Assembly: GCF_000024545.1 (NCBI RefSeq)
Contig: NC_013947.1
Coordinates: 5,828,001 to 5,892,000 of the forward strand
Direction of reading: 5' to 3'
DNA: 64,000 nt
Source of the DNA: Stackebrandtia nassauensis DSM 44728
Lineage (GTDB): Bacteria; Actinomycetota; Actinomycetes; Mycobacteriales; Micromonosporaceae
The notes under the pieces were generated by a model that searched no databases, was not told where the DNA came from, and was given only the letters and a program-made list of their open reading frames with translations. This document shows, one piece after another, positions 355 through 12,907 of the stretch (the first letter of the stretch is position 1; the number at the start of each line of letters is the position of its first letter). Both the position numbers and the translations under genes were made by a program.

Positions 355-2631
355 TCAGTGATCGCGGGTGGGTTCGCCGAACATCTGCTTCTCGATCGAG
401 GTCGCGTTGGCCCACACGTAGCGCTCCTTGGCGCCGACGCGCAGCATCGCGAACATGTCGTCGTAGAGCATCTGCAGCAGCCCCACCGTCTCGGCGTTGA
501 CGCGCAGCGCCGCCTGGGCGGCCGCGGCCTCGTCGGGGTTGATGCGTTGCAGCACCGTCAGATGGGCCTCCTCGACGGCCTGCGAGCCGTAGAGGGTGAG
601 CCGGGGCAGGATGGTCAGCTGGGTGCGCCACGGGCCCAGGATCGGCGTCGTGGAGGTGCCCTGTTCGCCGACGTCGTAGACGTACAGCGCCGGGGAGTGC
701 GGGTTCGCGTCCACGGTGACGGGACGGTCGCCGTGCAGCACGGCGAGCCGGTCCTCGCGGCCGGTGGCCGTGGGGCCCAAGCCTTCCCACACCTGCGGGC
801 GGGTGGTGCACACCGCGACCCGGGCGCCGACGGCCAGGGCGCGGAACACGACCAGCCGGGCGGCGAAGGCGCCGCCGACGACGGCCGCCTTGACGGCCTC
901 GGGGCGGAACAGCGGTGCCACCACGGGCTTCTGCTCGGCGTCGCGGCCCAGCACCAGCCCCGAGGGCGGCGCCGGGGTCACCATGAGTTCCAGCGCCTTG
1001 CTGCTGGCGTGGAAACCCTTGGGACGCAACGGGTCGACGGGACGTCCGATGGTGGGGACGACCGTGGGGGCGTCATCCAGGGACGGCAGACCGTACACGG
1101 TGCCCGAGGTCGGGGCGCCCGACAGCGGCCGCCCCATGGGGCCGCCGGAGAACGGTGAACCGGACACGGGTGGGCCGGAGAACGGGTTGCCCGACATGGG
1201 GACACCGGAGACCGGCGGACCCGAGAACGGGCTGCCGGAGATCGGTGGTCCCGAGATCGGCGGGCCGGAGACCGGACGGCCCGAGGGCGGCCCGGAGATC
1301 GGAGGGCCGGACACGGGACGGCCGGACGGCGGGCCGGAGATCGGGGCCCGGTTGCCGGTGGGCGGCAGCGCGGGGGTGCCGCCGGGGATCTTCCCGGTCG
1401 GACCCTCGCCGGCGCTGGCGGCCGGGGTGAACTGCGGCGGGCCCGACGGCGTCGAGGGCGGCACGCTCATGGGCGGCGGTGCCGGCCGCGCCGGGGGCTG
1501 CGGGGTGCCGGAGGTCGGGCTCGACGGCGGTGGTGGCGGGAACTGCGGGGCGCCCGAGGTCGGGGAGCTCGGCGCGACCGGCGGTGAGGTCGGTGCGGCC
1601 GGTGGGGGTGGCGCCTGCGACGCCGCCGGGGAGCTCGGTGCGGCCGCCGGGGAACTCGGAGCCGCGGCGGGCGGCGAGGTCGGGATCGCGGTCGTCGGCG
1701 GGGCCTGTGACGCCGCAGGAGAGCTCGGCGCGGCGGGCGGCGGTGCCTGCGGCGCGGCCGGGGAGCTGGGTGCCGCAGCGGGTGAGGTCGGGGTGGCGGA
1801 GCCCTGCGGCCGCTGCGGAGGCGGCGGTGGGGTCGCGGGCTTGGCGCCGCCCAACTTGCGCGTCTGCGCGCCGGGGACGTTCGCCGAGGGCGTGCGGGTG
1901 TCGGCGGGCGGCTGCTGCGGCTGCGCCGCCGGAGGCGGCGGGCTGGTGGGCTGGTTCGCGGGCGGCTGTCCGGCGGACGGCTGCTGACCCTGTGAGGGCG
2001 GCGGCACCGAGGCACTGGAGCGGTACGAGGTCGACGAACGCTGCCCCGAAGCGGGCGGCTGCCCCGCCGACGGCGGCGGCTGCTGACCCTGCGAAGGCGG
2101 CGGCACCGAAGCGCTGGAGCGGTAGGACGTCGACGAACGCTGCCCAGGAGACGATGGCGCCTGCGGCGGGGCCTGGCCCTGCGAGGGTGGCGGCACGGAA
2201 GCGCTGGAACGGTACGAGGTCGACGAACGCTGCCCCGAAGCGGGCGGCTGCCCCGCCGACGGCGGCGGCTGCTGACCCTGCGAAGGCGGCGGCACCGAAG
2301 CCGAGCCACGGGTCGCGGGACGCTGACCGGCCTGCGGGTACTGCTGCGTCGGCCCCTGGCCGGACGCCTGCGGGTTCGGTTGGGTCGGCTGCCCGGCGGC
2401 GGGCGGCGACTGCGGCGGCTGTCCCGGCGGCGGCACCGCGGCGCTGGAGCGGTACGGCGACTGGGGCGGCCGGGGCCCGCGGGGCGGGAACGGTCCGGGC
2501 GGCGGTGGCTTCGGCTGGTCGCCGCTCGGCGACTGCGGCCGGGCCGAACCTCGGTAGGAGGTGCGCGGTTCGCCGTTCTCGTCGCGCTCCTCGCCGTTGC
2601 CGCGCTGCTCGTCGTTGCCCTGCTGGCTCAT
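355..2631 (-). CDS. Proline-rich protein of the type VII secretion locus
   Basis: The ATG at 2631 is chosen because AGGAGG lies 5-10 nt upstream; a longer open frame to 2928 overlaps eccE and has no such signal. The product is 758 aa. Residues about 1-540 are low-complexity and rich in Pro, Ser and Gln, with near-identical repeats (SYRSSASVPPPSQGQ) and a second repeat type (ISGPPSGRPVSGPP). The last 200 or so residues look folded (from about LVLGRDAEQKPVV to the end), with no membrane segment or signal peptide. It follows eccE with a 157-nt gap and is the last gene of the minus-strand cluster. A cytoplasmic accessory role in type VII secretion is inferred from location only. The family is not recognised. 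Confidence 0.75.
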   Translation of the reverse strand: MSQQGNDEQRGNGEERDENGEPRTSYRGSARPQSPSGDQPKPPPPGPFPPRGPRPPQSPYRSSAAVPPPGQPPQSPPAAGQPTQPNPQASGQGPTQQYPQAGQRPATRGSASVPPPSQGQQPPPSAGQPPASGQRSSTSYRSSASVPPPSQGQAPPQAPSSPGQRSSTSYRSSASVPPPSQGQQPPPSAGQPPASGQRSSTSYRSSASVPPPSQGQQPSAGQPPANQPTSPPPPAAQPQQPPADTRTPSANVPGAQTRKLGGAKPATPPPPPQRPQGSATPTSPAAAPSSPAAPQAPPPAAPSSPAASQAPPTTAIPTSPPAAAPSSPAAAPSSPAASQAPPPPAAPTSPPVAPSSPTSGAPQFPPPPPSSPTSGTPQPPARPAPPPMSVPPSTPSGPPQFTPAASAGEGPTGKIPGGTPALPPTGNRAPISGPPSGRPVSGPPISGPPSGRPVSGPPISGPPISGSPFSGPPVSGVPMSGNPFSGPPVSGSPFSGGPMGRPLSGAPTSGTVYGLPSLDDAPTVVPTIGRPVDPLRPKGFHASSKALELMVTPAPPSGLVLGRDAEQKPVVAPLFRPEAVKAAVVGGAFAARLVVFRALAVGARVAVCTTRPQVWEGLGPTATGREDRLAVLHGDRPVTVDANPHSPALYVYDVGEQGTSTTPILGPWRTQLTILPRLTLYGSQAVEEAHLTVLQRINPDEAAAAQAALRVNAETVGLLQMLYDDMFAMLRVGAKERYVWANATSIEKQMFGEPTRDH
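1160..1345. repeat. In-gene tandem repeat, SGPPxSG type
   Basis: Short GC-rich repeats encode SGPPISGPP and SGRPVSGPP units inside the proline-rich protein. The units are degenerate and multiples of three, so copy-number change would keep the frame. Confidence 0.7.
1984..2310. repeat. In-gene tandem repeat of about 95 nt
   Basis: Three long and one partial copies encode the motif STSYRSSASVPPPSQGQ followed by a Gly/Pro/Gln linker. Copies near 2041-2110 and 2215-2300 are almost identical at the DNA level, which suggests recent duplication or gene conversion. Confidence 0.75.
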
Positions 2632-2788
2632 CGCGCGCCTCCTGTAGTCCGGACGGAGGCCGCGGCCTCGACGTCGCATTGCTGGCTTCGGGCCCGCTCG
2701 CCGACCGGGGTGAGGGCGGGGGCCGCGAAGCGCGGGGCATCGTGGAATCGCGCCGGGGCCGAAGCGACGGCGGCGCCACTGTGGTGGG

Positions 2789-4060
2789 TCATTGCGCCCC
2801 TCCCCCGGTGGGGGCGGAGGCGTAGGTCGCGGGGCCCTGCTCACCGTCGAGCCGCTCCAGCTTGGCGCCCAAAGATTCGGCGGCGCCTCGCACCCGCGCC
2901 TGTCCGGCGGCTGAGGTCTGGGCGTCACCGGTGATGCGGATCAGGCACTCGACCTCGACGCGGCGGCCGGTGGGGCGGCCGTCGGGGTCACGGGCCTCGA
3001 CGACGCCGGGCCGCAGGATGACCGAGGCGGTGTTGAACACGGCCGGGACCGCGGCGAGCACGTCGATGAGGTGGCGCAGCGTCCCCTCGTCGGTCGGGAA
3101 GCGCACCACCCGGTAGGTGACGTGCTGGAGGCCGTCGCCCTGCCACTGCGACCAGGATTCGCCGCAGCGGATCTGACCGGCCGGGATGTCGGTGCGCGAC
3201 AGGCCCAGCGACTCGCGCAGCGTGTCGCGCAGACCGTCGGCGTCCAGGACCCGGTTCTCGACGCCCGCGTTGCGCAGCAGCTTGCCGACCCGGCTGACGG
3301 TGACGGCCAGCGCCTTGTGGACGCCCTCGACGTCACCGCCGCGGTCGGCGGCGGCGTCCATCGCGTCCTCGGTGTTCATCCGGACCGCCAGCCAGCTGGT
3401 GTGGTGCACCACGGCGGGCAGTCCGCCCAGCAGTTCCTGGTACGACATGGAGGCGGGGCTGCCGTCGTGTCCGACCAGCCCGATCGGCACCGTGTGCCCG
3501 ACGACCTGGATGGCCGAGACCGGCACGCCGGACTCGGTGAACAGCCGCGCCAGCCGGTCCAGCGGGACCGGTTCGGTGACGCCGTCGACGCCGCCCATGG
3601 CCAGGGCCGCGAACCAGCCGCCCTCGTCGTGGCCGATGCCGATGTCGGTGTCGCGCTCGACGATGCCGACGATGCCCAGGTCGGGGGCGATGCCGTGCAG
3701 CGGCTCCTTGGACAGCCCGGCCTGACGCCGCCGTCCCGCCAGCCTGCGGCGCATCGGGATCGCCTGGTACAGCCAGACTCCACCGCCGCGCAGGAACGTC
3801 GGAATCAACAGCAGCAGGATGACGACGCCGCCGCCGATGTACCACGGCAGCGCCTGCTGCATCGTTTTGCCCATGTTGGCCGTGTACACCCCGGCGCCGA
3901 CGCCGATGGCGGCCTCGATCGCGAACAGGTGCAGAAGCGTGAACGGGCCCAGTCGGCCGTTGTTGCGGGCCGAGAAGGCCACCGGTTCCTCGGGACGCCG
4001 CCGTCTCTCGGCGACGACGGCGGTGCCGCGTGCCGGCGCTTGGTGCTGCACCATCGTCAT
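2789..4060 (-). CDS. eccE: Type VII secretion protein EccE
   Basis: The 423-aa product has two N-terminal membrane helices (about residues 40-60 and 70-90) followed by a cytosolic domain. This is the architecture of EccE, the peripheral subunit of the ESX/type VII inner-membrane complex. AGGAGG lies about 10 nt before the ATG at 4060; a second ATG two codons later is possible. It lies downstream of the mycosin gene, from which a small terminator separates it, and upstream of the proline-rich gene. The eccB, eccC and eccD genes are not in the window and may lie elsewhere. The call rests on architecture plus the mycosin neighbour. Confidence 0.82.
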   Translation of the reverse strand: MTMVQHQAPARGTAVVAERRRRPEEPVAFSARNNGRLGPFTLLHLFAIEAAIGVGAGVYTANMGKTMQQALPWYIGGGVVILLLLIPTFLRGGGVWLYQAIPMRRRLAGRRRQAGLSKEPLHGIAPDLGIVGIVERDTDIGIGHDEGGWFAALAMGGVDGVTEPVPLDRLARLFTESGVPVSAIQVVGHTVPIGLVGHDGSPASMSYQELLGGLPAVVHHTSWLAVRMNTEDAMDAAADRGGDVEGVHKALAVTVSRVGKLLRNAGVENRVLDADGLRDTLRESLGLSRTDIPAGQIRCGESWSQWQGDGLQHVTYRVVRFPTDEGTLRHLIDVLAAVPAVFNTASVILRPGVVEARDPDGRPTGRRVEVECLIRITGDAQTSAAGQARVRGAAESLGAKLERLDGEQGPATYASAPTGGGAQ

Positions 4061-4185: not shown

Positions 4186-5439
4186 CTACCGGCCGGGACG
4201 GTTTTGACCGTAAGGCGGCGTTTGTGGCGTGGGAGTGCCGCCCGGCGGCGTGTCCGTGACCCTCGGGAAGGTTCCGGTATCAGAAATCCGGGGCATGTTG
4301 CCGGTGTCGCCGGAGGCGACTGGAGGTGCTGTCGATATGCGCGGCATGGCTCCCGTATGGGACATTCCCGGCGCGGCGGGCGCGGCCAGCAGCGCGAGCC
4401 GGTGGGAGCGGTCGCGCAGCCGCACGATCAGCACCAGCGCCGCCAGGCCCAGGACGCCGAGAACGGCGATGAGGAGCGCCAGCGTGGTGTTGCCGCCGTC
4501 GAGGACACCACCGCTGGCGGCGCCACCCGAGGTTGTGGCGCCCGCCTTGAGCGCCTGGGTCGGGTTGACGATGCCGTAACCGAGCTCCTCGTCGAACTTT
4601 CCCCTACCGGAGGCGGTGTCCCGCACGGCGGTGATGAGCTCCTCGCCCTTGAGCTCGGGCTGCTTCTGCTTGACCAGCGCCATGGTGCCCGCGATGATCT
4701 GGGCGGCGAACGAGGTGTCGCTGCCGGTGCCGTACTCGCCGCCGGGCAGCGCCATCGGCAGGTCCTGGGACGGGGCGGCGATCGTGTCCGCGTCGCCCTC
4801 GCCGGGAACCGGGGTGTCGGTGGCCGCCGGCTTGCCGTCCTTGTCGGAGCCGACGGCGTTGACGATCCCCGCGTACGGGAGGGCGGAGTCGCCGGTGTCG
4901 CTGGCGGCGACCACGACCGGGATGCCCTTCTTGGCGGCCTTCTGCACCACGACGCGCAGCTTCTCGTCGGCTGGCGCCGACACCGCCACGGCGATGACGT
5001 CGACCTTCTTCTCGGTGAGGAACATGATGGCGTCGGCGACGAGCGCGCCCTGCCCGTCCTGCCGCGCACCGGCGATGTCGGCGGAGACGATCTCGGCCCC
5101 GGGCGCGACGCCCAGGACCCCGTCGCTCTCACCGTGGCCGCGACCTGCCAGGATCGCCGCGTCGGCGGTGCCGTTGCCGCCCTGCTCGTTCGTGGGCTGG
5201 CCGAACACCTCGCCCTCGACGACCACGTCCTCGAGGTCCGGGTGCGACGGGTCGATGCCGGAGTCCACCAGACCGATCCGCACGCCCTCGCCGGTGGCCT
5301 CCTTGTGGGCCTCGAGCAGGTCCAGTGTTGTCAGATACCACTGCCGGGCTCGGACGTCGTCCGCGTGCGCGGTGGCCGGTACGGCCAGGACGGTTCCGGA
5401 CGCGACCGCGAGCGCGGCGACAGCGCGAAGCACGCGCAT
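4186..5439 (-). CDS. mycP: Mycosin (type VII subtilisin-like protein), probably inactive
   Basis: The 417-aa protein has a signal peptide (residues 1-26), a subtilisin-like domain (about 30-300), a membrane helix (about 319-341) and a cytoplasmic Pro/Thr-rich tail. This is the layout of mycosins, which are anchored on the outer face of the membrane and stabilise the ESX complex. Asp59 (LVDSGID) and Ser243 (DTSFAAQ) sit in the catalytic motifs. The position of the catalytic His is Asn89 (GGNGTADAAILAG in place of the usual HGT motif), and the oxyanion-hole Asn is replaced by Asp181 (VVVAASDTGD). The family call is firm; loss of protease activity is inferred. A purine-rich GAGGAAG lies 11 nt before the ATG. 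Confidence 0.9.
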   Translation of the reverse strand: MRVLRAVAALAVASGTVLAVPATAHADDVRARQWYLTTLDLLEAHKEATGEGVRIGLVDSGIDPSHPDLEDVVVEGEVFGQPTNEQGGNGTADAAILAGRGHGESDGVLGVAPGAEIVSADIAGARQDGQGALVADAIMFLTEKKVDVIAVAVSAPADEKLRVVVQKAAKKGIPVVVAASDTGDSALPYAGIVNAVGSDKDGKPAATDTPVPGEGDADTIAAPSQDLPMALPGGEYGTGSDTSFAAQIIAGTMALVKQKQPELKGEELITAVRDTASGRGKFDEELGYGIVNPTQALKAGATTSGGAASGGVLDGGNTTLALLIAVLGVLGLAALVLIVRLRDRSHRLALLAAPAAPGMSHTGAMPRISTAPPVASGDTGNMPRISDTGTFPRVTDTPPGGTPTPQTPPYGQNRPGR

Positions 5440-5534: not shown

Positions 5535-7220
5535 CTACCAGTCGTCCCAGGAGTCGTCGATGTCCTTCTTCTTGCGCTTGACGGACTTCCCGGGACGCTC
5601 ACCGAAGACCGCCGGTCCGGCGGTGTGCTCGGCGTCCGTTTCCGGGGTGTAGCCGCGGATCACACCGGGCACCACGGTCTTGTCGACGTTGAACAGGTCG
5701 TCGAGCGGGCCGTCGCTTTCGATGGTCGCGGTGCGTTCCTCGTCGCGCCGACGAACCGTGCCGCGCGCGCCGCCCGCCGTCGGGGCGACCGCGGCCGGTG
5801 CGCCCGGCTGCTTGGCGCCGAGGATGACGCCGCGGCTCAGACCTTCGGCTCCGGTGCGGACCATGGGGGTCCGCACTCCGGCGCCCTGGTTGCCCGGGAG
5901 GTTCGCCGGACCGGCCATCTTGGAAGCCCGGGTTCCGAAGACGCCACGGGTGTCCATTCCGGCCTGTCCGACCCGGGAGGTCGGGTTCAGCATCGGGTTG
6001 GCGCGGGTTCCGGCCGTGGTGGGTGGCGGAACGTTCGGTCCGGTCATCGTGCGCTGGCCGATCACCGGCGGGCTCAGCGGCCGGACCGTCGGGTTCGGAC
6101 GCTGCGCGTTGGCGATGCTCGGGCCGGTCATGGTCCGGGCGTTCGGTCCCGGTCCGGGACCGACGGGTCCGCGCTGCCCGATGACCGGCGGCACGGTGCG
6201 TCCCGGCGGACGCGGCGCGGGAGGCGCCACGGTCGTCGGCGGCTTGGCCGTGATCGGCGGCCGCGTGGTGATCGGCGGCCGGGCCGTGATCGGCGGGCGC
6301 GTCGTCACCGGCGGTTTGGTGACCGGCGGCGGCGTCGGCTTGGCCGTGATCGGCGGCCGCGTGGTGATCGGCGGCTTGGCCACTGGCGGCGGCACCGGCG
6401 GCTTGGCCACCGGCGGCGGCGTCACGATCGGCGGCGGCACCACGGGGGGCGGCGTCACCGGAGGTGGCGTGACCGGCGGCGGGGTCACCGGGGGCGGCGC
6501 GACCGGCGGAGGCGGCGTCTGCAGCTCCGGCGCCGGGCGGTGCTCCGGCGGCGGAACCGGACGGGAGCCACCGGGGTCGGTACCACCGGGGTTACGGCCT
6601 CCGGAGCTGGAGTCCAGGCCCGGCCACGGCGGGGCCTCGCCCGGGTCCGGCACCGGCTCGTACTGGCTGAAGTCCTTCGGGTTCCACAGCTCCTTGAGGT
6701 ACGTGTCCTCCATGTTCTGGCCGTGCGTGTTGGCGGCCGCGCGGGCCGCCTCGTCGAAGGGCTTGCGCTTCTCGTTGTAGTCCTCGGCGGTGACGTTGTT
6801 GCCCTTGCCGAAGATCTGGCCGAGGTCGCCCAGGTCCTTGCTGTCGGCGTCCTCTTGCTTCTTCTGGTCCAGGCCGCCCTTGGCGGACTGCCACTTGGTG
6901 TTCTCGATGTCGACCAGGCGGCGGGTCTCGGTGGCGTCCTTGTGGATCTTGCGCCACGCGACGTCGTTTCCACTGGCGATCCGCTGAGCGTTCTCCATCG
7001 AGGCGATGGTGTTCTGCACCTCGAGGAAGTAACGGTCGGCGGCCTCGCCCTTCCAGGTCTTGCGGGCGGTCTCGAGGTCGGCCTTGAGGCCCTTGATCTG
7101 CTGGTCGAACAGCGACGCGGTCAGCTTCCAGCCGTCGGCCTGCTGATTCATCGTGTCGAGATGGTCGACACTCACCATGTCGTGGAGGTCTTCCACGTTC
7201 ATGGATTGGTAGTCGTTCAT
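5535..7220 (-). CDS. WXG100/PPE-like putative type VII substrate with Pro-rich stalk and shared C-terminal module
   Basis: The 561-aa protein starts after a strong GGAGGAGAG site. Residues 1-190 are predicted helical and contain a W-x-G turn (TWKGEA, W56 and G58) typical of the WXG100/PPE fold. Residues about 205-340 form a Pro/Thr-rich stalk (PPPVTPPPVT repeats). The C-terminal 220 residues carry PPVIGQR motifs, GVFGTRAS, RGVILGAK, a charged RRRDEE segment and HTAGPAVFG, and the chain ends DDSWDDW. The last part matches the gene at 8684-10300 segment for segment. It sits 25 nt downstream of a small helical partner and upstream of the mycosin and eccE, as ESX substrates do. Function beyond probable secretion is unknown. 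Confidence 0.8.
   Translation of the reverse strand: MNDYQSMNVEDLHDMVSVDHLDTMNQQADGWKLTASLFDQQIKGLKADLETARKTWKGEAADRYFLEVQNTIASMENAQRIASGNDVAWRKIHKDATETRRLVDIENTKWQSAKGGLDQKKQEDADSKDLGDLGQIFGKGNNVTAEDYNEKRKPFDEAARAAANTHGQNMEDTYLKELWNPKDFSQYEPVPDPGEAPPWPGLDSSSGGRNPGGTDPGGSRPVPPPEHRPAPELQTPPPPVAPPPVTPPPVTPPPVTPPPVVPPPIVTPPPVAKPPVPPPVAKPPITTRPPITAKPTPPPVTKPPVTTRPPITARPPITTRPPITAKPPTTVAPPAPRPPGRTVPPVIGQRGPVGPGPGPNARTMTGPSIANAQRPNPTVRPLSPPVIGQRTMTGPNVPPPTTAGTRANPMLNPTSRVGQAGMDTRGVFGTRASKMAGPANLPGNQGAGVRTPMVRTGAEGLSRGVILGAKQPGAPAAVAPTAGGARGTVRRRDEERTATIESDGPLDDLFNVDKTVVPGVIRGYTPETDAEHTAGPAVFGERPGKSVKRKKKDIDDSWDDW
6230..6530. repeat. In-gene Pro/Thr-rich repeat
   Basis: Degenerate 9-24 nt repeats encode PPPVTPPPV and KPPITTRPPITA units of the putative substrate's stalk. 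The opposite strand therefore has long open frames that I do not consider genes. Confidence 0.7.
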
Positions 7221-7245
7221 GTCTCTCCTCCTCTTCCCGACTCGA

Positions 7246-7806
7246 TTAGATGTTGGGCCGGTTCGAACCAGGGCCGGTGTTGTACGTGGGCGACCCCGGG
7301 GAATAGGTGTGGTCCACCGTGGTGGCGTTGTTCTTGTTCAGACCGGTCTTGGCTTCCAGGTCTTCGAGCGTCATCTTGTTCTGCGCGTCGATGCCGCCGA
7401 CCTCGTTGACGATGATGCGGGTCAGGCGGGACAGGCGGTCCATTCCGTCGCGGAAGGTCTTGAGCAGCTCGGCGTTGCCCTTCATCGACTCGGTGTGGTA
7501 GTTCGCGGCGTTGACCGCGTGCACCCAGCGCTTGTCGCGCGCGATGGGGTTGACCTCACCCTGCGCGGCGTCGTACTCGGTGTTGTTGGTCAACTGGCCT
7601 TTGATCAGTTCCACGTTCCGGTCGTAGTCACCGAGACGGCCCGCGAGGTTGTAACCCAGCGAGTAGATCGACGCCGACTCCATTTCCACGAACGTCGCCG
7701 CGTGCAGACTCGGGGTCGCACGGGGTCCGTAGACCGGGGCCTCGTAAGGCGCGCAGTCGTTGACATTGGTGTTGCAGGTCGGTGTCTCGTTGTTCGAGTC
7801 GTTCAT
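7246..7806 (-). CDS. Helical partner of the putative type VII substrate
   Basis: The 186-aa product is mostly helical from residue 35 to 150, followed by an Asn/Pro/Gly-rich tail. The N-terminus is polar and has two cysteines. The ATG at 7806 has GGAG 10 nt upstream; a TTG two codons earlier is possible. It is the first gene of a pair with the WXG/PPE-like gene 25 nt downstream, the arrangement seen for co-folded ESX substrate dimers. No W-x-G motif is clear, so the pairing is inferred from size, helicity and order. The 258 nt upstream (7807-8064) hold no gene I can support. Confidence 0.7.
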   Translation of the reverse strand: MNDSNNETPTCNTNVNDCAPYEAPVYGPRATPSLHAATFVEMESASIYSLGYNLAGRLGDYDRNVELIKGQLTNNTEYDAAQGEVNPIARDKRWVHAVNAANYHTESMKGNAELLKTFRDGMDRLSRLTRIIVNEVGGIDAQNKMTLEDLEAKTGLNKNNATTVDHTYSPGSPTYNTGPGSNRPNI

Positions 7807-8064
7807 CGTCAAAACGCTCCACGAAAGTTATGGCACGGCACGCCAGCGCCGTGAGGGAGTCCATCAGTGGTGCGCCTAGGCTAACCCAATTCGGGACTTT
7901 CGTCTCTCCCCGATTCGTGCCACAGGGGATATTTCGTTACGGAACCGCAACGGCACGCGTGGCATTCGGCCACATTGGGCCGGAGATCGCCTTCGCTTCG
8001 TGTGCGATGAGTCCGGCATGTAGTACTTGTGCGATATCCGATGATTGGCACTGAACGTCCCGTT

Positions 8065-8565
8065 ATGACCGAAACGCGATCCGCCACGCCGACGCTGAAC
8101 CGTTGGCGCCGACTGTCCCGGCGAGTGCTGCTGCCGCTGGCGGTGTTGGTGTTGCTCGCCGCCCTCGCGGTCACCGGATATGCCCGGTTCGCGGGCTCTC
8201 CGGCTTCGGCCGAGCGGCCGTTCCACTGGGACGGATCCACGGCCTACGTCGCCGGTGGACACACGCCCGGAACCTACACGACCTGCGAAATCACCCCGAA
8301 CAACGGCAAACCCCGGATCCTGAAGGTGCCCGGATCCTCCGGTGGCGTTTCGCTGGAGCCGTGGTTCAAGGGCACGGCCGAGATCACCTGTGGACGATCG
8401 GTCTTGGTAACGACCGGTATGCCTTCCAGTCTTTACCCGGTCGTCTCGCAGCAGGCATTCCTGGTGGGCATCGCGGCACTCGCGGTGTTGGCGTGGTGGT
8501 GCGGACGGATGCCCCGAGCCCGGTTATCCGCCGATGATCCCTTTTGTAGGAAATCTGTGGAGTGA
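8065..8565 (+). CDS. Small membrane protein with an external domain
   Basis: The 166-aa protein has a membrane helix near residues 20-42, an external stretch of about 85 residues with two cysteines (TTCEIT and ITCGRS) that could form a disulfide, and a second helix near 128-147. The start is uncertain: ATG 8065 gives a typical short basic N-terminus, but ATG 8041 is in frame and neither has a clear ribosome-binding site. It stands alone on the plus strand within the secretion island. The family is not recognised. Confidence 0.65.
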   Translation: MTETRSATPTLNRWRRLSRRVLLPLAVLVLLAALAVTGYARFAGSPASAERPFHWDGSTAYVAGGHTPGTYTTCEITPNNGKPRILKVPGSSGGVSLEPWFKGTAEITCGRSVLVTTGMPSSLYPVVSQQAFLVGIAALAVLAWWCGRMPRARLSADDPFCRKSVE

Positions 8566-8616
8566 TTGGGCACAGCGTCGATCCACCAGTCACTGTCCGT
8601 TGTCGACAACACACTC

Positions 8617-8660
8617 GTGCCGGGGTTCGCGGACGGGCAGGTCGTCGCGAACCCCGGCAC
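8617..8660. terminator. Bidirectional terminator hairpin
   Basis: A perfect 15-bp stem (8617-8631 with 8646-8660) with a 14-nt loop lies between convergent genes ending at 8565 and 8684. Confidence 0.75.
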
Positions 8661-8683
8661 GGTGAGGGGTGCCGAGAGTGGTC

Positions 8684-10300
8684 TCAGAACCAATCCGGGT
8701 CGGGTCGGCGGCGGGCGCCGAAGGCCACCGGGCCCGGATCGTGCGGGTGGTCGTCGGGATCGGGGTCGCGTGAGGTGACGACGGCCGGTCCGGGGTCGTG
8801 CACCGGCGGCGGTTTCGGCTCGCCGGTCAGCGGGACGACCGGGCCGGGATCGTGCACGGGTTCGGCGCCGGTGTAGCCGTTGGTGATGACGCCGCGGGTG
8901 GTGCCCTCGACGCTCCAGAACTCCACCAGCGGCCCGTCGCCGTACACCGGCTTTTCGTCGTCCTCGTCGCGCTTGCGTCCGGTCCGGGGCGGCAGGCCCG
9001 GTGCGCCCTTGGCGCCGCGGATCACGGCCCGGTTCAGCGCCTCGCCGCCGGACTTGGGACGGGCTATGCGCACGCCCGGCTGGCCCGGTTTGGCGGCGCT
9101 GGCGCGGCGGCCGAAGACGCCGTCCTCGCCGATGCCGGAGCGGCGGGTCGTGGGCACGCGGTTTCGAGCGCCGGGACGGCCGCCGATGACCGGCCGGTTC
9201 AGGCCGTTGACGGTGCGCGGAGCCGTGGACTTGGGCAGGTTGCCGGTCTTGCCGGAGCGCTGACCGATGACCGGCGGTACGGTGCGGCCCGGCATCCGGG
9301 GTCCGCCACCTCCGGACGGGGGCAACGGCGGTTTGGGCATCGGGACGCGCGGCGGTGCCGGTGGCAGCGGTGTCGGCAGCGGCGGAGCCGGGGTCGGTGT
9401 GGGTGGGCCGCCGGGGCCGGGGCCGGGACCGGGGACGGGTGTCGGCGCGGGTCCTGGGCTGGGGCCGGTCAGGATCGGTCCGTCGTCGTCCTCGTCGTCA
9501 TCGGGGTCGGGCTCGGGTTCCGGGTGAGGATCAGGTCCAGGTCCAGGGCCCGGTCCAGGACCGGGTCCGGGGTCAGGCCCGGGGCCAGGCCCAGGTCCGG
9601 GCTCGGGGTTCGGCTCGGGCTCGGGTTCCGGACTGGGGCTCGGATCGGAGTCGGTGTCGGTTCCGGGGCCGGGATCCGGCCCGGGGTCCGTGCCACCGCC
9701 GTCGCGCTCACCACTGAGGTCGGTGACCGTGGGGGCGGGCGTGGGTTCGGGCGGCATCTCCATACCGGCGAAGGCGATCTCGCAGACGTCCATCATGCTC
9801 GAGATCTCCTGGCGCGCCTCCTCGTCGAAGGGTTGCCGCAGTTCGGCTTCCGCGGGTGCCTCGCCCGGATCGGGGCCGTCGCCGTCGGAGTGGGCGTCGA
9901 CCTTCTTCGCGTGGGCGGCCAGCGCGATCTCGCGCGCCGCGAGCCAGCGGTCGTGGATGTTGTCCACATTGATCTGCGTGATCGTCACGTAGTCGGCCAT
10001 CGAGTCCCAGGCGGCGGCGTTGTTCCTCATGACCCGCGCCGCCTCGGCGAAGTTCTGTTTGCGGGACCCGAGTGCCGTCGCCGCCGCGGTGGCGGTCTCG
10101 GCGGTCCAGTTGTCCTCGATGTGCCGGATGTGGCCGTGCAGCCGTTCGGCCTCGTTGTCGTGCCGGTCGGCGATGCTCTGCCAGAAGTTCGCCTGGTGCC
10201 GCATCGATTCCGGGTTGTCCTTGCCGATCATCTCCCGGATCTGCTCGACGGTGCAGTTGTCGAAGCCGCCTCCGCCGCCCGCGGTGTCGTCCTTGTTCAT
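8684..10300 (-). CDS. Second WXG100/PPE-like putative type VII substrate with shared C-terminal module
   Basis: The 538-aa protein begins with about 185 helical residues containing a W-x-A turn (NWTAETA, W65). A stalk of Pro, Gly, Asp and Glu follows (DPGPGPGP repeats and an acidic DDDEDDD patch), then a Pro/Gly-rich linker. The C-terminal region has RTVPPVIGQR, RPVIGGR, DGVFGRRAS, ALNRAVIRGAKG and a charged RKRDEDDE segment, and closes with three HDPGP-type motifs. This order of motifs matches the C-terminus of the gene at 5535-7220. It follows its partner gene by 4 nt. Secretion is inferred; the function is unknown. Confidence 0.78.
   Translation of the reverse strand: MNKDDTAGGGGGFDNCTVEQIREMIGKDNPESMRHQANFWQSIADRHDNEAERLHGHIRHIEDNWTAETATAAATALGSRKQNFAEAARVMRNNAAAWDSMADYVTITQINVDNIHDRWLAAREIALAAHAKKVDAHSDGDGPDPGEAPAEAELRQPFDEEARQEISSMMDVCEIAFAGMEMPPEPTPAPTVTDLSGERDGGGTDPGPDPGPGTDTDSDPSPSPEPEPEPNPEPGPGPGPGPDPGPGPGPGPGPGPDPHPEPEPDPDDDEDDDGPILTGPSPGPAPTPVPGPGPGPGGPPTPTPAPPLPTPLPPAPPRVPMPKPPLPPSGGGGPRMPGRTVPPVIGQRSGKTGNLPKSTAPRTVNGLNRPVIGGRPGARNRVPTTRRSGIGEDGVFGRRASAAKPGQPGVRIARPKSGGEALNRAVIRGAKGAPGLPPRTGRKRDEDDEKPVYGDGPLVEFWSVEGTTRGVITNGYTGAEPVHDPGPVVPLTGEPKPPPVHDPGPAVVTSRDPDPDDHPHDPGPVAFGARRRPDPDWF
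9470..9700. repeat. In-gene PGPGP/PEPEP repeat
   Basis: Six-nucleotide Pro-Gly and Pro-Glu/Asp repeats form the stalk of the second substrate. The region is prone to slippage, and antisense frames stay open across it by composition. Confidence 0.7.
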
Positions 10301-10304
10301 CCCG

Positions 10305-10751
10305 CTAGTCCCCCTCGGAGTCGCCCGTGAACAGGTTCAGGCCGTCCCGCAGCAGCCCGCCGACGGAGTCGAGCGCTTCGGCGGCGGTCTCGTCGGCCGC
10401 GGACAGCGCCGCCCCGGCCAAACCGATCGCCCCGCCGACGGCCTCGCCCACCGCGACATGGTCGTCGGCGGCCCCGACGGCGCGCTCGAACGCAGCATTG
10501 TGGAACTTCATCATCTGCGCCGCCCGCGGGTTGCGGGGGTCGACGCCGAAGGTCGGCGCGGTGTCGAAACCCATGTCGCCGAACAACATCGCGCGCGCCT
10601 TGCCGATGTCGCCGCCGAAGGCGGTCGCGTCGGTGCGCATCGCCCGGGCCAGCTGCCGGACGTCGCCGTGGTCGAAGGCGAGGTCCCGGCCTTCCGAGAC
10701 GTAGGGCGATTCCGGTGGGGTCCACCGATCCTGTTCACGCGCCTGGCTCAT
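10305..10751 (-). CDS. Helical partner of the second putative type VII substrate
   Basis: The 148-aa product is largely helical from residue 25 on, with a Gly/Ala-rich stretch (EAVGGAIGLAGAALSAA) and an acidic end. GGAG lies 6 nt before the ATG at 10751, which decides against an in-frame ATG four codons upstream. Only 4 nt separate its stop from the next gene, so the two are probably translationally coupled and co-folded. No signal peptide is present, as expected for ESX-type proteins. Identification rests on arrangement, not on a recognised family. Confidence 0.72.
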   Translation of the reverse strand: MSQAREQDRWTPPESPYVSEGRDLAFDHGDVRQLARAMRTDATAFGGDIGKARAMLFGDMGFDTAPTFGVDPRNPRAAQMMKFHNAAFERAVGAADDHVAVGEAVGGAIGLAGAALSAADETAAEALDSVGGLLRDGLNLFTGDSEGD

Positions 10752-10842
10752 GTCCGTCTCCAATCGCGCCCGATGGCGTGGTCGATGCCGGAACTGTAGG
10801 AACGGCGGCGCACATGACGGCGCATACGCGGGTGCATATACG

Positions 10843-10908: not shown

Positions 10909-11727
10909 CTAGGGCAGGGTTCCCAGAGCGGCGTTGATGTCGGCGTTCCAGAAGCTCACCTGGGCGTAGACGCCGGGCTTGCCCGGACGGGCGCAGCCCT
11001 CGCCCCAGCTGACGATGCCCACCTGGACGGGCTCTTCGCCCGCCATGTTGACCATCGGGCCACCGGAGTCGCCCTGGCAGGTGTCGATGCCGCCCTCGTC
11101 CATGAGGCCGGAGCAGATCTCGCCTTCGGCGTCCAGGTTGGAGTAGGCGCCCTGACAGGTCGCGTCGTCCACATAAGGTGCTTCGGCGTGCTGGAGGTAG
11201 TCGGCCTGCGGGCCGCCCTCGGAGGTGGCGCCCCAGCCCATCAGCTGGAAGTTCGGGCCCTCGTCGCTGGTGCCGTCGGTCGCGAGCTTGATGGTCTTCG
11301 CGTCGGCGATCGGTTCGGACAGCTTGATCAGGGCCCAGTCGCCACGGCCGTCGGAGGCGTAGGTCTCGGACTGGTGAATGTAGGCGGAGGTGCGTTCCTG
11401 GATGTCGGGGCTGTTGAGGTCGTTGGCGCCGTAGTAGGCGGTGACGCTCGTGTCCTCTCCGGTGCCGTCGACGCAGTGGGCGGCGGTCAGGACGACCTGG
11501 TCGGTGATCATGGAGCCGCCACAGCCCATGGACAGCCGGACCATCCACGGGTAGGCGCCTTCGGGGGCATCCTCGCCACCGACGACCTTGGTGCTGATGT
11601 CGCCTTTGTCCTCGCCGTAGGACGGTCCGTCGTCGGCCTGTGCCGGGAGCGTGGTCGCGACGATGGCGAAGGTTCCGGCCGCGAGCACGGCGCTCGCGGC
11701 TATGAGGGCTCTGGTTTTCTTGCGCAC
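10909..11727 (-). CDS. Secreted trypsin-like serine protease (S1), copy 1
   Basis: The 272-aa preproprotein has a signal peptide (about 1-31), a short propeptide and a mature chain starting at VVGGEDA (about residue 48). The catalytic triad is visible: His84 (LTAAHC), Asp130 (GDWALIKL) and Ser221 (QGDSGGP). Asp215, six residues before Ser221, predicts trypsin-like cleavage after Arg or Lys. It starts with GTG behind AAAGGAGA. It is a tandem paralogue of the next gene upstream, sharing leader, start region and promoter spacing. It probably hydrolyses external protein and could supply the peptide importers encoded further along. Confidence 0.93.
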   Translation of the reverse strand: MRKKTRALIAASAVLAAGTFAIVATTLPAQADDGPSYGEDKGDISTKVVGGEDAPEGAYPWMVRLSMGCGGSMITDQVVLTAAHCVDGTGEDTSVTAYYGANDLNSPDIQERTSAYIHQSETYASDGRGDWALIKLSEPIADAKTIKLATDGTSDEGPNFQLMGWGATSEGGPQADYLQHAEAPYVDDATCQGAYSNLDAEGEICSGLMDEGGIDTCQGDSGGPMVNMAGEEPVQVGIVSWGEGCARPGKPGVYAQVSFWNADINAALGTLP

Positions 11728-11954: not shown

Positions 11955-12782
11955 TTAGCCTTCTTCCCCGCCACCGAACGCGTCGGCCGCGGCGTTGATG
12001 TCGGCGGCCAGGGTGCTCACCTGGGCGTAAACGCCGAACTTCTTGGGCTGCGCGCAGCCCTCGCCCCAGCTGACGATGCCGGTCTGGGTGAAGGTGCCGT
12101 CCTCAGCGACGACGCCCATCGGGCCACCGGAGTCGCCCTGGCAGGTGTCGATGCCGCCCTCGTCAAGACCGGCACACAGCATCGAGTCGGGGTCGAGCGA
12201 CTCGCCGTAGGCTTCCTTGCACTTCTCGTCGTCGACGCCCGGAACCTTGGCCTTCAGCAGCTCGTTGGACTGCTCGCCGCCCTCGGAGGTGGCGCCCCAT
12301 CCCATGATGGTCTGCTCTTCCAGGTCGACGCTGTCGTCCTCGGCCAGCTTGACCGGCTCGACGCCCTCGGCCGGAGCCTCGAGCTTCAGGACCGACCAGT
12401 CACCGGCCATCTCGATCGGCTTGCCGAAGTCGGGGTTCTGGGTGACCTCGGTGACCTTGATTTCCTTGATCTCAGGGTCGTCGAGCTTGTTGGTGCCGTA
12501 CTTGACGGTGAAGCCCTCGCTGCCGTCGGTGCAGTGCGCCGCGGTCAGCGCGACGTCCGGACGGATCAGCGAGGCGCCACAGGCGTCCTGGCCACCGATC
12601 GTCAGCCGCATCATGAACGGGAATTCGCCTTCTTCGGCGGGCTCGCCACCGACGACCTTTTCCTCAGGACCGTTGCTCTTGTCAGTGTCGGCGGCTAGTG
12701 CCGGGAGGGAGACGCCGACGGCGAGAGCGCCCGCCGCGAGGGCAGCGCCCACCGCGGCCAGCCGCTTTGTCTTCTTCTGCAC
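11955..12782 (-). CDS. Secreted trypsin-like serine protease (S1), copy 2
   Basis: The 275-aa product starts at GTG 12782 behind AAAGGAGA; the frame is open further upstream but without a start signal. It has a signal peptide (1-30), a short propeptide and a mature start at VVGGEPA. The triad is His83 (TAAHC), Asp128 (GDWSVLKL) and Ser218 (QGDSGGP), with Asp212 giving trypsin-like specificity. It is a diverged tandem copy of the protease at 10909-11727, more acidic overall and with a longer C-terminal tail. Each copy has its own terminator, so they are separate transcription units. Confidence 0.93.
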   Translation of the reverse strand: MQKKTKRLAAVGAALAAGALAVGVSLPALAADTDKSNGPEEKVVGGEPAEEGEFPFMMRLTIGGQDACGASLIRPDVALTAAHCTDGSEGFTVKYGTNKLDDPEIKEIKVTEVTQNPDFGKPIEMAGDWSVLKLEAPAEGVEPVKLAEDDSVDLEEQTIMGWGATSEGGEQSNELLKAKVPGVDDEKCKEAYGESLDPDSMLCAGLDEGGIDTCQGDSGGPMGVVAEDGTFTQTGIVSWGEGCAQPKKFGVYAQVSTLAADINAAADAFGGGEEG

Positions 12783-12844
12783 GAGAAGTTCTCCTTTGAA
12801 GGGGTGTGGCGGCGAGATGAATCGCACACCGGGGTTACCCGGCC

Positions 12845-12873
12845 AACATAAATGACATATCGGCGAGCGGCAA
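12845..12873 (-). promoter_or_regulatory. Promoter of protease gene 2
   Basis: On the minus strand TTGCCG and TATGTT are separated by 17 nt, about 60 nt before the GTG start. Confidence 0.6.
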
Positions 12874-12879
12874 TACCAG

Positions 12880-12907
12880 ATATGTATTAATGAAGATTTA
12901 TACATAT
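12880..12907. promoter_or_regulatory. AT-rich inverted repeat upstream of protease promoter 2
   Basis: ATATGTAT and ATACATAT are separated by 12 nt, just upstream of the -35 hexamer, in an unusually AT-rich patch for this genome. It is a candidate activator or repressor site. The rest of 12908-13021 holds no feature I can support. Confidence 0.45.

Follow-up and report, generated by a model that had tools for sequence, protein, structure and literature searches.

We analyzed a 64,000-nucleotide stretch of the genome of Stackebrandtia nassauensis DSM 44728 (the window; positions 5,828,001 to 5,892,000 of NC_013947.1, within one contig of 6,841,557 bp), focusing on the C-terminal tails of two proteins encoded there, P0002 and P0003. 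As a preliminary description of this DNA had indicated, both open reading frames are present on the minus strand, at 5535..7220 (P0002, 561 aa) and 8684..10300 (P0003, 538 aa), and each is preceded by a gene for a small partner, at 7246..7812 (minus strand, 188 aa) and 10305..10763 (minus strand, 152 aa), respectively. ESX core genes lie next door, namely, eccE (2789..4060, minus strand; TIGR03923, E 1.2e-35, over the cut-off; PF11203) and the gene for the mycosin MycP (4186..5439, minus strand; PF00082 subtilase domain; TIGR03921, E 1.4e-35, below the cut-off). With EccE and a mycosin adjoining, a WXG/PPE-type N-terminal domain (N-domain), and a partner gene, the type VII setting proposed earlier holds. 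The best account of P0002 and P0003 is that each provides the large subunit of a partner/PPE-type pair belonging to an actinobacterial type VII (ESX) system, and we infer that the pairs are probably exported by such a system.

P0002 consists of a helical N-domain with a PPE-like fold (aa 1 to 189; 6654..7220, minus strand), a Pro/Thr stalk (aa 190 to 340; 6201..6653, minus strand; 38% Pro across aa 171 to 344), and a tail (aa 341 to 561; 5538..6200, minus strand). P0003 has a Pro/Gly/Asp stalk and a tail of the P0002 type (aa 339 to 538; 8687..9286, minus strand). We found RTVPPVIGQR at residue 341 of P0002, a second PVIGQR at 385, and GVFGTRAS at 426, then SRGVILGAK, RRRDEE, PGVIRGYT at 518, and HTAGPAVFG at 532; the part between RRRDEE and HTAGPAVFG includes FNVDKTVVPGVIRG. 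P0003 carries RTVPPVIGQR at 339, PVIGGR at 370, and GVFGRRAS at 394, then NRAVIRGAK, RKRDED, RGVITNGYT, and three copies of HDPGP. Thus, every motif listed for the two tails was found, and the common order is as claimed.

Local alignment of the P0002 and P0003 tails scored 189, compared with 53.2 ± 9.5 (maximum, 102) in 2000 shuffles. When the identical first ten residues were left out, the score was 158 versus 51.5 ± 8.9, and 0 of 2000 shuffles reached it. Composition alone, which had been named as a possible cause of the likeness, is excluded by these shuffled-sequence scores. By segment, the N-domains of the two proteins are 24% identical (z 13.5), the stalks align at chance (z 0.2), and the tails are 40% identical (z 12.7). 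Since the N-domains are homologous too, we rejected the idea of unrelated proteins with a common tail and regard P0002 and P0003 as diverged paralogs. The tail is more alike (40 to 45%) than the N-domain (24 to 31%) in the pairs P0002/P0003, P0003/L011, P0003/L031, L011/L031, and L030/L032, where L numbers denote loci, and in paralog comparisons the stalk is often at chance while the tail is retained. The proposal that the tail is kept past a fast-changing stalk therefore stands for the paralogs P0002 and P0003, in which the N-domain is kept as well, but not for orthologs, in which the segments are about equally alike.

An AlphaFold model of P0002, made from a shallow alignment of only four sequences, shows a PPE-type fold in the N-domain and predicts that the tail beyond it is disordered. 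The N-domain of the model matches PPE chains in structure comparison, with EspB structures also ranked, and so P0002 has the PPE-domain fold as judged from the model. Residues 339 to 561 have per-residue confidence (pLDDT) below 50 throughout and include one low-confidence 5-residue helix at 506 to 510. A folded C-terminal domain is thus unsupported by the P0002 model, which is weak on this point because of its four-sequence alignment. No Pfam or NCBIfam model matched the tail of P0002 or P0003, and a literature search, mostly in openly available papers, returned no description of the tail; judging by title or abstract, the papers listed for six motif strings have no bearing on secretion. The preliminary description had spoken of a C-terminal module; a conserved tail without a Pfam or NCBIfam match is indeed there, but the model predicts a disordered string of short motifs and not a folded domain.

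Domain models for the N-terminal part stayed below their cut-offs. In a PF00823 search, P0002 had no match and P0003 scored 14.8 bits against a gathering cut-off of 26, and the N termini of both proteins lack Pro-Pro-Glu. The WXG100 model TIGR03930 gave 21.6 bits for P0002 (E 1.8e-4) and 15.9 bits for P0003 against a cut-off of 44.85. At 561 and 538 aa, the two proteins are also far from the approximately 100 residues of the WXG100 family; P0002 has W-K-G at 56 to 58, and the P0003 N-domain has none. Neither protein is therefore classed as WXG100.

The tail is not confined to these two proteins. We searched with a 16-row tail profile (A5), from which L049 was left out; because the number of candidates scored per genome was capped (at 10, 54, 26, or 17, depending on the search), all genome counts here are lower bounds. 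At E ≤ 1e-3, A5 matches 12 places in the S. nassauensis genome, 11 of them full genes and the twelfth a 60-residue open reading frame that consists of tail only. The tail was found in at least 6 of 61 sampled genomes, all 6 of which have EccE, compared with EccE in 44 of the 61. Our table of full-length members has 25 entries, drawn from six genomes. Their stalks range from about 50 to about 260 residues (limits set by a loose pattern, which was wrong for L006, remeasured separately), and the tail is kept in all 25. A loose PVIGxR-type pattern occurs in 25/25 members and some members lack one or another of the remaining motifs, although some pattern matches in the motif table are due to chance; the motifs are recognizable across the three tabulated genera and also in a further genus (L183). 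An N-domain profile trained on 16 members found 7 of 9 held-out members at E < 1e-3 and L086 in a second round, whereas the best of 180 shuffled sequences reached 10.8 bits in the first round. L082 was not matched, so the N-domain is recognizable in 24/25. Three further loci stand outside the table: L183, and L182 and L184, whose substrates run off contig ends. We dropped L090 since its gene runs off the contig, and we also dropped a match in G013 (L010; two-row profile, E 3.8e-4) because it falls among other coding frames. Another match was obtained in G021 (L021).

We surveyed the neighborhoods of the 25 members, 7 kb on each side where available. Seven lie by EccE and a mycosin (P0002 and P0003 occupying one locus), 5 by a mycosin only, and 13 by neither. 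The EccC gene is also at the locus in genomes G029 and G010, and in G085 (L183) the partner and substrate lie within a mycP-eccB-esx run. A YbaB/EspL-like gene, detected with our own profile, is near 10/13 members away from ecc and mycP genes and near 1/12 mycosin-linked members; five of these ten genes trained the profile, and Pfam YbaB is over its cut-off in those five. In an eleventh of the 13, from G001, the tail protein is itself fused to a YbaB/EspL-like domain (L087:8291-10003; hhalign E 7.5e-8). A SARP-type regulator with BTAD is near 6/13 of the away members versus 0/12 of the mycosin-linked members, with the caveat that the SARP and YbaB references were drawn from some of the counted loci. 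Homologs off type VII loci that also lack the N-domain had been named as a result that would speak against the type VII interpretation; the first half was found, with 13/25 off ecc and mycP genes, but 24/25 keep a recognizable N-domain.

The last motif of the tail has the form [W/F]-x(5-8)-[V/A]-P-x-V-[I/L]-G and likewise closes WXG/PPE-type proteins encoded elsewhere; PPE-like proteins from other loci end TWLTEDE..W.....APPV[I/L]G. We found W...P.V[I/L] near the C terminus in 7/343 genes from 24 EccE loci (6 loci positive), one of the 7 being probably a methionine aminopeptidase, and in 0/240 genes from 15 control regions. The EccE loci were picked from stronger matches, two were shortened by contig ends, the control places were arbitrary, and neither set is random. 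Since the loci and patterns were chosen after the motif had been seen, the survey is only suggestive. An 8-row profile of the generic WXG/PPE-type tails (A8) matched at least 35 of 296 genomes in a class-wide search, and in the S. nassauensis genome 4/4 generic-tail matches are no more than 4 kb away from an EccE. In G002, of the same genus, we found no A5 match, yet a generic tail ending APPVVG occurs around its EccE.

The same element is present in a small acidic protein of 72 to 117 residues, which carries LW.....A[L/V]PPV[I/L/F]GR and occurs in 10 of 121 genomes of the family, including all five Stackebrandtia. Its gene is at eccC or esx genes in 10/10 of these genomes (in G100 by position only). 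By eye it has no signal peptide, and the one copy searched has no Pfam family match. Comparing profiles, we obtained E 0.0036 and a probability of 9% for A5 and A8, 4.6e-5 and 68% for A8 and the small acidic protein profile (A10), and 1.7e-4 and 50% for A10 and A5. The three profiles align on identical W...P.V[I/L]G columns, and in each of the three comparisons the score was reached by 0/150 column shuffles. Both common descent and convergence of the last motif are possible.

As far as the sequences and the model go, we favor a reading in which the tail is recognized before export, either by the secretion machinery or by a chaperone, and we put its probability at roughly 40%. Because the motif also occurs in the small protein beside eccC, a binding or checkpoint role is favored over a surface anchor, another function suggested earlier. 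The tail would then be a machinery-facing docking string that acts while the pair is still cytosolic. A shared receptor would read the [W/F]...P.V[I/L]G element, the best candidates being the EccC ATPase and an EspL/YbaB-like chaperone, and the upstream PVIGxR copies may add avidity or specificity. The small acidic protein, which bears this element too, could occupy, prime, or gate the receptor. The stalk would be mainly a spacer, which on this proposal would account for its strong divergence between paralogs. A wider version would make [W/F]-x(5-8)-[V/A]-P-x-V-[I/L]-G a type VII C-terminal code on disordered PPE/WXG-type ends, with the acidic protein as a substrate mimic gating or priming the receptor; in the Stackebrandtia family, the code would have been multiplied into a PVIGxR series. 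We consider this version doubtful.

Several observations weigh against a tail that is read before export. P0002 and its orthologs in three other Stackebrandtia are 55 to 56% identical in the N-domain, 61 to 62% in the stalk, and 54 to 56% in the tail, and the P0002 stalk aligns with the ortholog stalks above chance (z 3.6 to 8.3). The motif survey is weak: a looser P.V[I/L/M] pattern occurs in 9/343 versus 3/240 genes, and a WL-acidic pattern is not enriched (27/343 versus 16/240). The common element was selected after being seen, and convergence is possible because it is short and the HH-suite probabilities are low. Among the candidates scored in the class sample, A10 matched 1 of 296 genomes, that of S. 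nassauensis. Among the 25 members, 13 are away from ecc and mycP genes. Of the genes called YbaB-like by our profile, those of L082 and L035 were not confirmed by Pfam YbaB, and the L087 fusion scores below the Pfam cut-off. Lastly, in 24 aligned partners (those of 23/25 members and that of L090), the YxxxD/E-type motif has Asp in 24/24 and Tyr/Phe in 15/24, and both window partners lack the aromatic residue, the P0002 partner having VxxxD near its C terminus and the P0003 partner LxxxD.

Alternatively, the tail could act after export, as an Arg-rich disordered motif string for surface retention or oligomerization, with the stalk spanning the wall. In both P0002 and P0003 a long Pro-rich stalk leads to an Arg-rich tail, with 21 Arg in the 223 tail residues of P0002 versus 16 in the other 338 and 23 in the 200 tail residues of P0003 versus 15 in the other 338. 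The V[I/L/F/M]-type motif is present three to seven times in each of 14 members examined, as would fit multivalent binding. In contrast, the last motif is also found in the small acidic protein beside eccC, in which we saw no signal peptide, generic tails bear it singly after an acidic stretch, and members with a stalk of about 50 residues retain the tail. We think that a role after export is rather unlikely.

The Arg content of the tail is also relevant to a second alternative, which starts from the mycosin. The MycP of the window reads GNGT at the catalytic His (His to Asn) and keeps the Asp and Ser; its triad is incomplete in the alignment, and we predict that it is a pseudoprotease. In L012, L013, and L014 the mycosin reads GTGT and the Ser is gone too, so that the His is lost in 4/4 and the Ser in 3/4 EccE-adjacent Stackebrandtia mycosins. 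All three residues are intact in the mycosins of G029, G010, L036, L037, and L089, which read (G/D/T)HGT. Two genes for trypsin-like proteases lie upstream of P0003 in the window, one adjoining its partner gene (10909..11727, minus strand; PF00089, E 4e-50; signal-peptide-like start by eye) and a second at 11955..12905 (minus strand; PF00089, E 5e-49); both have His, Asp, Ser, and DTCQGDSGGP. A trypsin-type gene is near a partner gene in 4/4 EccE-linked Stackebrandtia loci and in 0/22 other loci scanned, including G029 and G010. The Stackebrandtia genes have the His, Asp, and Ser and a D-x-C-Q-G-D-S-G-G-P pocket, which we take to mean Arg/Lys specificity.

The tail could accordingly be a processing region, in which an exported Arg/Lys-specific trypsin-like protease has replaced the dead mycosin and cuts after the PVIGxR arginines. 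The co-occurrence of mycosin loss and the trypsin gene, with catalytic residues intact in the five other loci, and the Arg enrichment of the tail fit this idea. However, the four loci share ancestry, so that mycosin loss and the trypsin gene are in effect one correlated event, and in L012 a small opposite-strand open reading frame lies between the protease and the partner. The trypsin gene may be a chance neighbor. Tail motifs also occur without such a trypsin nearby. Furthermore, mycosins of core loci near eccB keep the His in 5/5 reads, and the GTS serine is present in the three reads that are long enough (L177, L179, and L183), so that the system does retain a mycosin. We consider processing improbable. 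In mycobacteria, the protease activity of MycP1 is dispensable for ESX-1 secretion (PMC5082899), which makes a natural pseudo-mycosin plausible.

That the tail is a functionless low-complexity remnant, whose similarity merely reflects common descent or recent gene conversion, is disfavored and seems very improbable to us: its composition is biased, individual motifs are missing in some members, and orthologs keep stalk and tail about equally, but paralog stalks are at chance in several pairs in which the tails are not, and the motifs are recognizable across three genera and a fourth (L183).

The window, with its eccE and mycP, lacks eccC; in the same genome, full-length matches to EccC were found at 413, 713, 737, and 1046 kb. 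In our reading, the 737-kb locus (L177:3585-14318; 731 to 742 kb) encodes a mycosin, EccB, an Esx pair, EccD, and EccC, together with the motif-bearing small acidic protein (L177:13965-14318, at 742 kb), and the five EccE matches of the genome all lie elsewhere. The EccC of this locus (L132 is the same gene, shortened) is closest to that of G029, at 62.5% versus ≤51% for the other full-length copies, and the EccE of the window is likewise closest to that of G029, at 54.7% versus ≤38.8% for others. In G029 the ecc genes corresponding to the two halves form one cluster. Since both proteins are nearest to those of this single cluster, an ESX system has probably been split, with one half in the window and the other at the 737-kb locus.

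P0002 and P0003 resemble the mycobacterial PE/PPE pairs (PF00823; PPE41 and PPE15) in the N-domain fold of the P0002 model, the small partner just upstream, the acidic position of a YxxxD-like motif in the partner, and the variable C-terminal part. They differ in having no PF00823 match over the cut-off, in lacking a Pro-Pro-Glu start, and in having a disordered motif tail without a Pfam or NCBIfam match. With the ESX-1 proteins EspB, EspA/EspC, and EspE/EspF with EspL, they share a WXG/PPE-type large subunit, and a YbaB-like gene is near many family members. EspL is of the YbaB type and stabilizes EspE, EspF, and EspH (PMC6319747), and EspB is a single polypeptide (PMC9811218); the P0002 and P0003 pairs, unlike EspB, are split over two genes. 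This likeness concerns the N-domain and the gene neighborhood. MycP resembles other mycosins (TIGR03921) in gene position, the PF00082 subtilase domain, a signal-peptide-like start, and a C-terminal hydrophobic stretch (the last two by eye) but lacks the catalytic His. Other actinobacterial WXG/PPE-type proteins ending WLTEDE..W....APPV[I/L]G have the last W...P.V[I/L]G element in common with P0002 and P0003, but they carry it singly on an acidic lead and lack both the PVIGxR series and the HDPGP end.

We also noted further genes near these loci. Downstream of eccE in the window, a Pro-rich open reading frame (355-2928, minus strand) has repeated RSSTSYRSSASVPPPSQGQ-like units, and in G010 a Pro-rich protein whose end resembles it follows eccE. 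The tail-only open reading frame of S. nassauensis mentioned above (L081:9294-9476, minus strand, at 5.07 Mb) encodes 60 residues corresponding to the last part of the tail, with a YbaB-like gene nearby; it may be a remnant or an adapter. Proteins of 320 to 434 aa are encoded beside several pairs (L030:7315-8427, L079:11404-12366, L081:7746-8798, L082:7829-8893, and L088:6064-7368) and are candidate exported effectors; that of L030 is a weak WXG100 match, and the other four have no notable Pfam match. A SARP/AfsR-type regulator is encoded beside the members of L011, L030, L031, L032, L087, and L088, and in most of these loci the regulator also has NB-ARC and TPR.

To our knowledge, the selection of PPE-type substrates by type VII systems is poorly understood outside mycobacteria. 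A short C-terminal element common to such proteins in several families and to a small protein encoded next to the ATPase would amount to a docking signal open to testing. The Stackebrandtia loci also offer a natural experiment, in that a mycosin that has lost catalytic residues has kept its neighbors and lies near an Arg/Lys-type protease seen only there among 26 loci.

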